Shown one piece after another: positions 59,556-64,000 of a stretch of 64,000 nucleotides of DNA. A model generated the notes under the pieces. The model had not been told where the DNA came from. It did not search any database and worked only from the letters and a program-made list of their open reading frames with translations. The first letter of the stretch is position 1; each line of letters begins with the position of its first letter. The translations under genes and the position numbers were made by a program. This DNA is from Holophagaceae bacterium (GTDB taxonomy: Bacteria; Acidobacteriota; Holophagae; Holophagales; Holophagaceae), in NCBI GenBank assembly GCA_025361205.1, contig JANYAS010000084.1:1-64000 (forward strand), in the 5' to 3' direction.

Positions 59556-59807
59556 ATGCGTATCCCCATCCTCATTGCTGCTGCGGCCCTCCTTCTCGCC
59601 GTTCCCGCTCAGGCCAAAATGCCCTGGGTGAAGAAGGCCCAGGAAGCCGGCTTCGCCGAAGTCAAGGATTGCAAGGCGTGCCACGTTGGCATGGCCAAGA
59701 AGGGCGGCGACATGTCCGAGCGCGGCAAGTTCCTCCTGGACATGAAGGCCAAGAAGAACGCCGCCGAAGTGGATCTGGCCTGGCTGAAGGAATACAAGGG
59801 CAAGTAA
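59556..59807 (+). CDS. Small monohaem c-type cytochrome, copy 1
   Basis: An 83-residue exported protein: signal peptide ending AQA (about residue 20), then a mature part of about 63 residues with one haem motif (DCKACH) and a C-terminal VDLAWLKEYKGK. It is a close paralogue of the next gene. Mature size is below that of standard class I cytochromes c (80-120 residues), and a distal Met is possible in MAKKGGDM. GGAG precedes the ATG. It likely shuttles electrons in the periplasm. Confidence 0.85.
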   Translation: MRIPILIAAAALLLAVPAQAKMPWVKKAQEAGFAEVKDCKACHVGMAKKGGDMSERGKFLLDMKAKKNAAEVDLAWLKEYKGK

Positions 59808-59867: not shown

Positions 59868-60125
59868 ATGCGTGTTGCTACCCTCATCGTCGCCGCTGCG
59901 ATGCTTGCTGCCATTCCCGCCCAGGCCAAGCTGGCCTACGTCGGCCAGGCCAAGAAACTCGGCTTCACGGAAATCACGAATTGCCAGTCCTGCCACGTCG
60001 ACAAGATGCCCAAGAAGGAGGCTCATGCCCCCAACGAGCGTGGCGCCTACCTCATCGCCATGAAGGCCAAGAACAAGGCCGCCGAGGTGGATCTGAACTG
60101 GCTGAAGGACTACAAGGGCAAGTGA
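59868..60125 (+). CDS. Small monohaem c-type cytochrome, copy 2
   Basis: An 85-residue paralogue of the preceding gene, with signal peptide ending AQA, one haem motif (NCQSCH), a KKEAHAPNERGAYL segment and the same VDLNWLKDYKGK ending. The two share the order haem motif, RG-x-L/Y, KAKNKAAEVDL, WLK-x-YKGK, so they arose by tandem duplication. Distal ligand here could be the histidine in EAHAP or a Met in DKMPKK. A terminator follows. Confidence 0.85.
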   Translation: MRVATLIVAAAMLAAIPAQAKLAYVGQAKKLGFTEITNCQSCHVDKMPKKEAHAPNERGAYLIAMKAKNKAAEVDLNWLKDYKGK

Positions 60126-60150
60126 ACCGTAAACATCGGTTGGAGGATTG

Positions 60151-60186
60151 GGCGCCGGGCGGGAAGAACCCCCGGCGCCTTTTTTC
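60151..60186 (+). terminator. Intrinsic terminator after the twin cytochromes
   Basis: GGCGCCGGG (60151-60159) pairs with CCCGGCGCC (60171-60179), then TTTTTTCG. Confidence 0.9.
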
Positions 60187-60279
60187 GTACCTCAGCAGAG
60201 GGTGGCGTGCCCCGCTCGCCTCTTGTTTTGCTCAACTAGTCCAGCAAGATCTCGCCCTTGTGAGCGCTTTCCCGCAATC

Positions 60280-60293
60280 GTGATGCAGATCAC
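60280..60293 (+). promoter_or_regulatory. CRP/FNR-family operator candidate
   Basis: GTGATGCAGATCAC is a perfect GTGA-N6-TCAC dyad, the half-site spacing of CRP/FNR family regulators. A possible -10 box TATAGA (60330-60335) lies 40 bases downstream and the multihaem cytochrome start is at 60353. Redox or carbon control of this gene is plausible; no such regulator is in the window. Confidence 0.5.
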
Positions 60294-60352: not shown

Positions 60353-62242
60353 ATGCGCCTGCTGCTTGCTGGATTGCTTTCCGTGGTGCTCTTCGCAGCA
60401 CCGCCCAGTGCGAAGGACTGCACCTCGTGCCATGAAGTGGATCTCGTGAAGTTCGAGGGCTCCAAGCACGGCAGCATGGGCTGCACCGGGTGTCATAGCA
60501 GCATCACGAAGCTCCCTCACGCCGAGAAGCCCGGGCCGGTGAAATGCGCCACCTGCCACGAGGATCAGGTCAAGGCTTACGGCAAGAGCGTCCACGGAAT
60601 GGCCATGCAGAATGGCATGTCCGACGCGGCCACCTGCTCCTCCTGCCATGGTTCACCGCACACGATCCTCGGGGCCAGCGATGCTGCCTCCAAGGTGGCC
60701 AAGAATAACCTCCCGGATACCTGTGGCGCCTGCCACTCCAACCCCAACTTTCTCGCCAAGCACAACATTCCCTTTGCGAAGCCGGTGGAAGCCTACCGAC
60801 TGAGCCTCCATGGGCGCGAAGTGGCTAAGGGCAACACCAGCGCTGCTTCCTGCTCTGACTGTCACGGCAGCCACGACATCCTGGCCTCGCGGGATCCCAG
60901 GGCCCACGTGAACCGGGCCAGGGTGGCCGAAACCTGCGGTGTCTGCCACAGCGAGGTCCTGACCGTCTATGCGGACAGTGTGCATGGGCTGGCGGTGAAG
61001 CGGGGTTCCAAGGACTCGCCTACCTGCACCGACTGTCACGGTGAGCACAGCATCCTGGCGCCCTCCGAGCCCGGCTCCCTGGTCAACGCCGCCCGGGTCT
61101 CCACCGTGACCTGTGGCCGCTGTCACGGAGATGAACGCCTGGATTCTCGCTACGCCTTCGGCGACAAGGTGCCGGCCTACCAGGACAGTTTCCATGGCCT
61201 GGCGGTTCGCGGCGGGCAGAAGACTGCTGCCAACTGCGCCTCCTGCCACGGGGTCCACAACATCCTCCCCTCGGCGGACATCCGCTCCACCGTCAATCCC
61301 GCCAACCTGCAGAAGACCTGTGGCCAGTGCCATGTGGGTGTGGGCGATAAGATCGCCCGAAGCAAGGTGCATGTGCGTACCGCTGGCGGAGTCGAGCACA
61401 TCTCGGTGAAGTGGATCCGCTGGGCCTACTACGCGCTCATCCCCATGACCATCGGCTGCATGCTCTTCCACAATGGCCTTGACTGGCTTGCGAAGCTCCG
61501 GCGCCACAAGCCTCACCACGGCACGGGTGAGCAACTCCCCCGGATGAACAAGCGATTCCGCATCACCCACGCTCTGGTGATGGTCAGCTTCATCGCCCTT
61601 GTCATCACCGGGTTTGCGCTGAAATTCCCCGAATCCGGCTGGGTGGCTAGCTTCCAGCTGGACCACCTAGGTCGGTACCGCGGCGTTCTCCATCGCATTT
61701 TTGCCGTGATGATGATGGCCGCCACGGGGCTCCACCTCGTCCACCTCGCCCTGGTGAAGCGCGACCGGGTGATCCTGTGGGAGCTTCTGCCGAATTGGCA
61801 GGACGCCAAGGACATCTTCAACATGCTGCGCTACAACCTCGGCTTGATCCCCAAACGACCCACCTTCGGAATGTTCGGCTATGCCGAGAAGATGGAGTAC
61901 TGGGCCTTCATGTGGGGCACCGTGGTGATGGCCGTGACCGGGATTCTGCTGTGGGCCAAGGACACAAGCCTGAAATACTTCCCGATCTGGGTGATGGATG
62001 CGGCCACCGCCGCCCACTGGTACGAAGCCATCCTGGCCACCCTCTCCATTCTCGTGTGGCACTGGTACCTGGTGATCTTTGACCCTGATGTCTATCCCAT
62101 GGACCTGGCCTGGCTGACGGGGAAGGCCTCGGCAGACCACATCCGGGAAACCCGCCCGGAGTACTACCGACAGCTCAAAGAGGCACAGAACGCGACGGCC
62201 AATGGGGATGTCGAGGACGGTGACGGCGGCCCAGGGCACTGA
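60353..62242 (+). CDS. 11-haem cytochrome c fused to a cytochrome b561-like membrane domain
   Basis: A 629-residue exported membrane protein. After a signal peptide (about 1-20), CxxCH motifs occur at residues 23, 44, 65, 95, 124, 167, 195, 225, 254, 295 and 323: eleven haems. Repeated S-x-HG segments (SVHG, SLHG, SVHG, SFHG) offer distal ligands. Residues 354-585 hold five helices with b-haem histidines (ITHALVM, GLHLVH, HWYEAI, WHWYLV), as in Ni-hydrogenase/b561 subunits. This architecture resembles CbcL-like quinol oxidoreductases, so it probably passes electrons from quinol to periplasmic cytochromes. GAGG before ATG at 60353 favours that start. Confidence 0.9.
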   Translation: MRLLLAGLLSVVLFAAPPSAKDCTSCHEVDLVKFEGSKHGSMGCTGCHSSITKLPHAEKPGPVKCATCHEDQVKAYGKSVHGMAMQNGMSDAATCSSCHGSPHTILGASDAASKVAKNNLPDTCGACHSNPNFLAKHNIPFAKPVEAYRLSLHGREVAKGNTSAASCSDCHGSHDILASRDPRAHVNRARVAETCGVCHSEVLTVYADSVHGLAVKRGSKDSPTCTDCHGEHSILAPSEPGSLVNAARVSTVTCGRCHGDERLDSRYAFGDKVPAYQDSFHGLAVRGGQKTAANCASCHGVHNILPSADIRSTVNPANLQKTCGQCHVGVGDKIARSKVHVRTAGGVEHISVKWIRWAYYALIPMTIGCMLFHNGLDWLAKLRRHKPHHGTGEQLPRMNKRFRITHALVMVSFIALVITGFALKFPESGWVASFQLDHLGRYRGVLHRIFAVMMMAATGLHLVHLALVKRDRVILWELLPNWQDAKDIFNMLRYNLGLIPKRPTFGMFGYAEKMEYWAFMWGTVVMAVTGILLWAKDTSLKYFPIWVMDAATAAHWYEAILATLSILVWHWYLVIFDPDVYPMDLAWLTGKASADHIRETRPEYYRQLKEAQNATANGDVEDGDGGPGH

Positions 62243-62295
62243 TGCCGGGAAGTTGTGATCTCAATCCGCCCTATTAAAATACCCCAGAGTGGACA

Positions 62296-62330
62296 ATAGA
62301 CGGGATCCCAGGAAATGGGATCCCGTCTAT
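62296..62330 (+). terminator. Hairpin after the first multihaem gene
   Basis: ATAGACGGGATCCCA (62296-62310) and TGGGATCCCGTCTAT (62316-62330) form a 15-bp perfect stem with a GGAAA loop. The T-run is short (TATTTG), so it may act mainly in RNA stability. Confidence 0.7.
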
Positions 62331-62362
62331 TTGCCCACTTCTTGCAGTCTGGAGAACTCGCC

Positions 62363-64000
62363 ATGATCCCGGATGTTCGACCCCATTTCCATTCCATCCC
62401 GGATGCTCGTCGGCCTCGGGTCCGCTCTACTTGGTTCCTCTCGTTGGTTCTGCTGGCGGGCGGATTTCTACGGTCCACGCCGATCTATGCGGCGGGTGGC
62501 AAAGCTCCCCAGGAGAATTGCTACGACTGCCATAGCGACAAGGACATGACCAAGGACGAAGGCGGCAAGCCGCGCTCCCTGTTTGTGGATGCCGATCGGT
62601 TCGGCAAGGCCGTCCACGCCTCCCTCTCCTGCCGGAGCTGCCACGTAGAACTGCACCAGGACCACCCGGGGGATGGCAACCCGCCACCCAAGGTGAAGTG
62701 CGGGATCTGCCACACCGAGGAGGACAAGATCTACCAGAGCAGCATCCATGGCATGAGCAAGGCCATGGGTGCCTCGGCGGCTGCCAACTGCACGGACTGC
62801 CATGGCAACCACTACATCAGTCGAGTCGGCCAGACGGATTCGCCGGTCTACAAGATGAACCTCCCCAAGACCTGCGCCAAGTGCCACGCCAACAAAAACA
62901 TCAACGACGAATACAAGATGAAGTTCCCCTCGGTGGGCAACCAGTACAACGAGAGCATCCACGGCATGGCGCTACTCCAGAAGGGACTCATCGTTGCGCC
63001 CAGCTGCAACGATTGCCACGGCGTGCATGACATCAAGCGCAGCGTGGATCGCAGTTCTCCCATCAACCACGCCAACGTCGCCAAGACCTGCGGCAAGTGC
63101 CACGTCACGGTCGAGGAAATCTACAACAAGAGCATCCACGGCCAGCTGCTGGCCAAGGGTGATCCCCGCGGTCCCGTGTGCATCCAGTGTCATTCCGCCC
63201 ACCAGATCGAAACACCCGGGAACGACCATTTCAAGGCCGCCAGCGACAAGGTGTGCGGCAAGTGCCACGCCGACCGACTTGAGCACTACCGGGATACCTA
63301 CCACGGCAAGGCCATGGCCCTCGGCAAGGCGAATACGGCCAGCGCCGTGGCCGCCTGCTACGACTGCCACGGGCATCACGACGTGCTCCGGGTGGCGGAT
63401 CCCAATTCCCACATGTCCCCGGGCAACATCGTCGCTACCTGCAAGAAGTGCCACGCCAAGGCTTCGGCGAGCTTTGCCAAGTATGCGCCCCATGCGAATC
63501 CCATGGACCGCAAGAACTACCCGGTGCTCTATTACGTCTTCATCATCATGACCTCCCTGCTCGTGGTCACGTTCACCCTCTTCGGCGGCCACACGCTGCT
63601 CTGGCTGTTCCGGTCCATCTGGCTCTACCGCCACGATTCCAAACAATTCCGCGAAGCCAAGATCATGATCCAGAAGGATGATGAACAGTTCACCCGCTTC
63701 CAGCCCTTCGAGCGGTTCCTTCACATCCTGGTCGTCACGAGCTTCCTGCTGCTGACGATCACTGGCATGCCGCTGAAGTTCTACTACACCGATTGGGCCA
63801 AGGCGATCTTCAGCTTCTTCGGCGGTGCCGAGGTGGCCCGCACGCTCCACCATTTCGGCGCGGTCATCACCTTTGTCTACTTCACCATGCATGTGAGCAG
63901 CACCCTGGGCCATTTCTGGAAGAACCGGGGCTTCATGAAGGACCCTGAAACCGGCGCCTTCCGCTTCTCCCGGATCTTCAAAGCCATGGCGAGCCCGGAC
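62363..64000 (+). CDS. Second 11-haem cytochrome c/cytochrome b fusion, 3' end outside window
   Basis: At least 546 residues, open to the end of the window. After a signal-like segment (helix about 23-43), eleven CxxCH motifs run from NCYDCH at residue 53 to TCKKCH, with four S-x-HG or D-T-Y-HG distal segments (SIHG, SIHG, SIHG, TYHG). Hydrophobic helices follow (YPVLYYVFIIMTSLLVV region, FLHILVVTSFLLLTITG, HHFGAVITFVYFTMHVS), with paired histidines. It is the same domain plan as the gene upstream but diverged in sequence, so the two are ancient paralogues rather than a recent copy. ATG at 62363 with GGAG upstream. Confidence 0.9.
   Translation, partial: MIPDVRPHFHSIPDARRPRVRSTWFLSLVLLAGGFLRSTPIYAAGGKAPQENCYDCHSDKDMTKDEGGKPRSLFVDADRFGKAVHASLSCRSCHVELHQDHPGDGNPPPKVKCGICHTEEDKIYQSSIHGMSKAMGASAAANCTDCHGNHYISRVGQTDSPVYKMNLPKTCAKCHANKNINDEYKMKFPSVGNQYNESIHGMALLQKGLIVAPSCNDCHGVHDIKRSVDRSSPINHANVAKTCGKCHVTVEEIYNKSIHGQLLAKGDPRGPVCIQCHSAHQIETPGNDHFKAASDKVCGKCHADRLEHYRDTYHGKAMALGKANTASAVAACYDCHGHHDVLRVADPNSHMSPGNIVATCKKCHAKASASFAKYAPHANPMDRKNYPVLYYVFIIMTSLLVVTFTLFGGHTLLWLFRSIWLYRHDSKQFREAKIMIQKDDEQFTRFQPFERFLHILVVTSFLLLTITGMPLKFYYTDWAKAIFSFFGGAEVARTLHHFGAVITFVYFTMHVSSTLGHFWKNRGFMKDPETGAFRFSRIFKAMASPD

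Follow-up and report, generated by a model that had tools for sequence, protein, structure and literature searches.

Near the end of the window, as we call the whole 64,000-nucleotide stretch of Holophagaceae DNA analysed here, two genes in tandem are each predicted to encode a multihaem cytochrome c fused to a b-type membrane domain. The locus raises the question of what two such proteins would do side by side, and in which direction electrons would pass through them. Contig C66, which carries the window, is 65,838 bases long and comes from a Geothrix-group draft genome of 3.1 Mb; Holophagaceae and Geothrix are the nearest named relatives.

Two fused multihaem cytochromes

An earlier note, made from the letters of the window, had read the two open reading frames (here P1 and P2) as 11-haem cytochromes that each offer a single-chain path from quinol to many c haems. 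Both open reading frames exist, motif counting gives exactly 11 CxxCH in each, and in both a single predicted chain combines a multihaem c domain with a b-haem membrane domain of quinol type (Table 1). The note had asked for sequence beyond position 64,000, and there P2 continues for another 546 bases, the contig containing the whole gene (longest open reading frame, 743 amino acids). P2 most likely starts at the ATG at 62363, with GGAGA upstream; an earlier ATG at 62315 sits within a hairpin. P1 starts at ATG 60335 or 60353, the ribosome-binding site being better at the latter. Identity across the genus is 67–87% for P1 and P2, and the features of the two proteins are not due to chance, since Pfam, PDB-sequence and fold matches concur and both genes are conserved across the genus. 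Architecture, haem motifs, ligands, conservation and gene context could all be read from the predicted sequences and their alignments. Elsewhere in the same genome (contig C104, 8319–8819), four in-frame stops interrupt a multihaem fragment resembling P1, which may be a relative in decay or the product of a frameshift in the assembly.

Table 1 Features of the locus, in window coordinates unless stated otherwise
Feature	Position	Strand	Description
mono1	59556..59807	+	Small monohaem (CKACH) exported cytochrome with signal peptide; adjoins P1 in most Geothrix-group loci
mono2	59868..60125	+	Second small monohaem (CQSCH) exported cytochrome, paralogue of mono1
Terminator	60150..60185	+	Intrinsic terminator of the mono1-mono2 unit; G+C-rich stem and six T
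Palindrome	60280..60293	+	GTGATGCAGATCAC, CRP/FNR type, upstream of P1
P1	60353..62242	+	11-haem c domain and FdnI-type b domain; five predicted membrane helices
P1 c domain	60419..61333	+	Periplasmic 11-CxxCH region; distal His conserved
P1 membrane domain	61400..62080	+	b-haem ligands H412, H453, H561, H576; extra invariant H379, H467
CRP/FNR-like site	62253..62266	+	TTGTGATCTCAATC, degenerate, upstream of P2; kept in the window's subgroup (seven-sequence alignment)
Hairpin	62296..62331	+	Strong, terminator- or attenuator-like, between P1 and P2
P2	62363..64000, on to contig 64546	+	11-haem c domain and FdnI-type b domain; six predicted membrane helices
P2 c domain	62519..63454	+	Periplasmic 11-CxxCH region
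P2 membrane domain, first part	63521..64000	+	b-haem ligands H470, H512; extra invariant H426, H526

Haem ligands and membrane domains

In the periplasmic domains, the distal S-x-HG segments that the earlier note had pointed out are real, P1 carrying SKHG, SVHG, SLHG, SVHG and SFHG, and P2 carrying SIHG three times plus TYHG. Thirteen non-motif histidines are invariant among Holophagaceae P1 proteins, and ten in P2, with two more nearly so (32 sequences). This pattern fits bis-His haems in both proteins, as measured for CbcL (PMC9129911).

Pfam finds PF01292 in both membrane domains, and their sole significant PDB sequence match is FdnI of Escherichia coli formate dehydrogenase N (1kqf chain C; E 1e-9 for P1 and 1.6e-3 for P2). 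The same chain is the only Foldseek match at E <= 0.001 for each, with TM-scores by target of 0.76 and 0.78, and the AlphaFold models (mean pLDDT 80.5 for P1 and 71.4 for P2) contain five and six long membrane helices, respectively. Scores against TIGR01583 (formate dehydrogenase gamma) are 48.1 bits for P1 and 23.6 bits for the in-window part of P2, below the cut-off of 115.85. The b-haem histidines proposed earlier are borne out, as FdnI H18, H57, H155 and H169 correspond to P1 H412, H453, H561 and H576 and to P2 H470, H512, H640 and H655, the last two falling outside the window on the rest of the contig. P2 H655 was set via the P1-P2 profile alignment, and direct phmmer alignment gives H660, which is also invariant. 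Across 160 aligned rows, the four ligand columns hold histidine in 69/69 P1-type and 89–91/91 P2-type b domains.

The membrane core of both proteins has the FdnI fold and keeps all four of its haem-b ligands; unlike FdnI, the proteins are fused to a multihaem c domain, lack a formate dehydrogenase partner and carry extra histidines. One of these is invariant in TM0, the additional N-terminal helix preceding the FdnI core (P1 H379, P2 H426), and a second invariant histidine of TM2 lies 14 residues past the first (P1 H467, P2 H526), where the aligned FdnI residue is Met. The TM0 histidine is present in every fused protein examined and in 0/8 stand-alone b subunits. Where the gene is split, in other Acidobacteriota, the split falls between TM0 and TM1, and 8 of the 10 c-only proteins inspected end in a C-terminal helix with a histidine at a comparable place (the exceptions being L171_7924, without a TM0-like histidine, and L163_12232, in which it is shifted). 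TM0 would on these alignments be part of the cytochrome c moiety. More tentatively, and on balance doubtfully, the TM0 and TM2 histidines absent from FdnI could ligate a third b haem or shape a quinol site of unusual kind; if this were true, the b core would receive from the c-subunit a haem ligand or a residue of the quinol site, which would couple both parts.

Relation to known quinol oxidases

The earlier note had likened the domain plan to that of CbcL, while setting the locus apart by its haem number and tandem pairing. The CbcL/MtrH/MtoC family spans 15 phyla including Acidobacteria and Verrucomicrobia, has 3–23 motifs, and has six transmembrane helices in most members and five or four in some (PMC6295460); P1 and P2 share its plan of an N-terminal multihaem c domain and a C-terminal HydC/FdnI-type dihaem membrane domain. 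For CbcL itself, the published numbers are nine c haems, two b haems and six helices (PMC9129911). The likeness thus stands for the domain plan, as it does for the bis-His haem pattern and the small cytochrome partners nearby; six-helix P2 is the best fit, whereas P1 departs from CbcL in having five helices. Compared by published description, P1 and P2 also differ from CbcL of Geobacter sulfurreducens in having 11 haems versus nine and in being two diverged copies side by side. Haem number is nevertheless no distinguishing mark, 11 lying inside the range of the family, and the pairing is no peculiarity of this genome, the same pair being found in Holophagaceae and Verrucomicrobiota.

Two other Geobacter systems offer comparisons. 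ImcH, like P1 and P2, is proposed to oxidise quinol for extracellular respiration; it is, however, an unrelated NapC/NirT-type protein with a CX3CH motif and no b-type domain, and P1 and P2 lack its NapC/NirT region, CX3CH motif and N-terminal helices. CbcBA is described in the literature as an inner-membrane quinol oxidase, of b and c type, that serves low potentials, and by description it resembles the split c and b forms of other Acidobacteriota, whereas P1 and P2 are fused single chains.

An ancient pair with a removable member

P1 and P2 are indeed diverged, as noted earlier, with 29% identity over 532 columns of the profile alignment. A recent tandem duplication is ruled out by this identity together with their position on two sides of the b-domain tree across two phyla, a split broken by one aberrant split subunit. 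By sequence, P1 and P2 are anciently diverged paralogues, and the pair recurs in at least two phyla.

The locus is found in Geothrix fermentans and other named Geothrix, with the genus gene order mono1-(mono2)-P1-[P2]-small cytochrome. One Geothrix-group subclade is without P2 and retains P1 and the small cytochromes, and P2 presence mapped on the P1 tree requires three changes versus a mean of 7.3 after shuffling. On this distribution, P2 is a removable insert within a conserved small-cytochrome cassette in Geothrix-group genomes. In Verrucomicrobiota MAGs, P2 orthologues are common, with 11 motifs and 57–68% identity, and change about half as fast. Of 56 loci from Verrucomicrobiota and bacteria like them, 31 also contain a P1-type partner in fused form, its motifs numbering 9, 11 or 13; counts over these 56 loci are descriptive, as many come from related MAGs and the draws are not independent.

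Separate horizontal transfer of P2 into Holophagaceae was hinted at by the tree and not upheld by distance ratios; we do not claim it, because the between-group P1/P2 distance ratio (2.28) is about that within Verrucomicrobiota (2.09). In one Holophagaceae MAG (L064), P2 is of the Holophagaceae type and P1 is a 9-haem protein of the Verrucomicrobiota type, about 3 kb off on the other strand, a mix that gene replacement or faulty binning could explain. In simple gene calls, three loci of other Acidobacteriota (L163, L164, L165) have P2-type proteins of 930–1260 amino acids with 18–23 CxxCH.

Neighbouring genes and control elements

Small exported cytochromes flank the P1/P2 pair throughout the genus. 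In the window's genome these are mono1, a candidate periplasmic electron carrier, its paralogue mono2, and a 77-amino-acid dihaem cytochrome 3' of P2 (contig 64747–64980). Among the 56 loci counted above, an ImcH-like gene lies within 8 kb of P2 in 34, and in about 29 of those 34 it overlaps P2 or precedes it by no more than 300 bp in simple gene calls. The encoded ImcH-like proteins have a NapC/NirT region, the CX3CH motif and N-terminal hydrophobic helices. Similar company is found in other Acidobacteriota, with P1, a split P2 (19-motif c protein and b protein) and an ImcH-like gene in two loci (L168, L175), and P1, a 19-motif c protein and an ImcH-like gene in a third (L169). A single ImcH-like gene is present in the window's own genome, on contig C89. 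In some Verrucomicrobiota loci (L116:2-5309 and similar), an ImcH-like gene, P2 and P1 follow genes for a pair of Fe-S proteins, a tetrahaem cytochrome and two membrane proteins of NrfD type, one of which has a cyclic-nucleotide-binding domain.

The terminator behind mono2 folds at -35.5 kcal/mol (60130–60205; z -3.35). Between it and P1, GTGATGCAGATCAC is the only match to GTGAYNNNNRTCAC in the window, with 0.26 expected by chance, and we take it to resemble CRP/FNR-family sites; a matching palindrome stands at a similar place upstream of P1 in most Geothrix-group loci (L004-L022, L043-L120). The gap between P1 and P2 holds a hairpin of -32.3 kcal/mol (z -7.9), gives no match in Rfam, and in the window's subgroup conserves an AT-rich stretch as well as TTGTGATCTCAATC. 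Close relatives have a hairpin at the matching place before P2, some with a T-run, and other Geothrix have a short gap without such a hairpin. With these elements, P2 may be under its own control in the window's subgroup, separate from that of P1.

Proposed role and alternatives

Taken as a whole, we read P1 and P2, with a probability of roughly 0.7, as paralogous, CbcL-like inner-membrane quinol:cytochrome c oxidoreductases that would drain menaquinol toward extracellular acceptors. We infer the direction of flow, the electron partners, the extracellular acceptor and the difference in potential as follows. Menaquinol would be oxidised within the FdnI-like membrane domain, and electrons would pass from b haem to b haem and along the periplasmic row of 11 c haems with bis-histidine ligation. 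From there they would reach the small periplasmic cytochromes (mono1, mono2 and the dihaem protein 3' of P2), then outer-membrane conduits, and finally Fe(III) or other extracellular acceptors. P1 would be the core gene of the locus and P2 an optional second module, separately controllable, which probably widens the conditions in which the quinol pool can be drained. Geobacter CbcL is needed for low-potential acceptors and reduces PpcA (PMC9129911). That P1 and P2 may work at different potentials, as the earlier note proposed, is indicated indirectly by the P2 control elements in the window's subgroup, the absence of P2 alone from one Geothrix-group clade and the ImcH-like linkage in other lineages.

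The cytochrome b fold by itself gives no electron direction, and in FdnI, whose quinol site is on the cytoplasmic side, electron flow is inward. If the quinol site of P1 and P2 is also cytoplasmic, outward flow would add no proton motive force and might cost some, and the lack of gain would suit a low-potential outlet, both points being conjecture. FdnI's own direction favours an alternative that we consider unlikely, in which P1 and P2 are opposed in direction or run mainly inward, passing electrons from an external or periplasmic donor such as Fe(II) to the quinone pool in the manner of MtoC. The CbcL/MtrH/MtoC family does have Fe(II)-oxidiser members, with MtoC homologues proposed to run inward in them, and direction is not separable by a sequence feature (PMC6295460). 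Yet the literature presents Geothrix as reducing Fe(III) (PMC6344600), P2-type genes keep company with ImcH-like ones, ImcH being known solely in reducers (PMC6295460), and a search for MtrB/PioB-type porins found none in this genome, a result that also counts against our main reading.

The side-by-side recurrence of the genes in two phyla could instead point to a single heteromeric complex holding 22 c haems plus at least four b haems, one machine and not two alternatives. P1 and P2 distances are correlated within each group (Mantel r 0.78), but this is expected if both genes follow the species tree and is no proof of physical interaction. We regard a single complex as quite unlikely, as the Geothrix-group clade without P2 keeps P1 and its small cytochromes, gene order flips between groups, one genome (G199) has P1 and P2 on separate contigs, and L064 places a different P1 type near P2. 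Service to a soluble periplasmic reductase (of nitrite, selenite, peroxide and the like) in place of extracellular electron transfer is very unlikely: small cytochromes are close by and NCBIfam detects weak likeness to Nrf and Ext cytochromes, but the best matches are far under cut-offs, no such reductase was noticed beside the pair in the Holophagaceae loci examined, and other lineages show the ImcH-like linkage.

Significance of the proposed paired outlets

In the open-access papers searched, we met no earlier description of the paired arrangement, of ImcH linkage in these phyla or of the TM0 histidine. Apparently new are the ancient P1/P2 pair also standing side by side in Verrucomicrobiota, with P2-type genes often directly downstream of an ImcH-like gene; P2 as a removable insert; the TM0 histidine staying with the c-subunit after the split; and the P1 palindrome and P2 hairpin. 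The natural occurrence of Geothrix-group genomes with and without P2 makes the role of the second module testable. Knowledge of the matching of quinol oxidation to acceptor potential comes mainly from Geobacter, whose ImcH, CbcL and CbcBA were discovered one by one, and extracellular electron transfer is little studied in Acidobacteriota and Verrucomicrobiota. The joint recurrence in both phyla of two anciently diverged CbcL-like types, in many cases accompanied by an ImcH-like gene, suggests that these phyla maintain alternative quinol outlets together as a unit.
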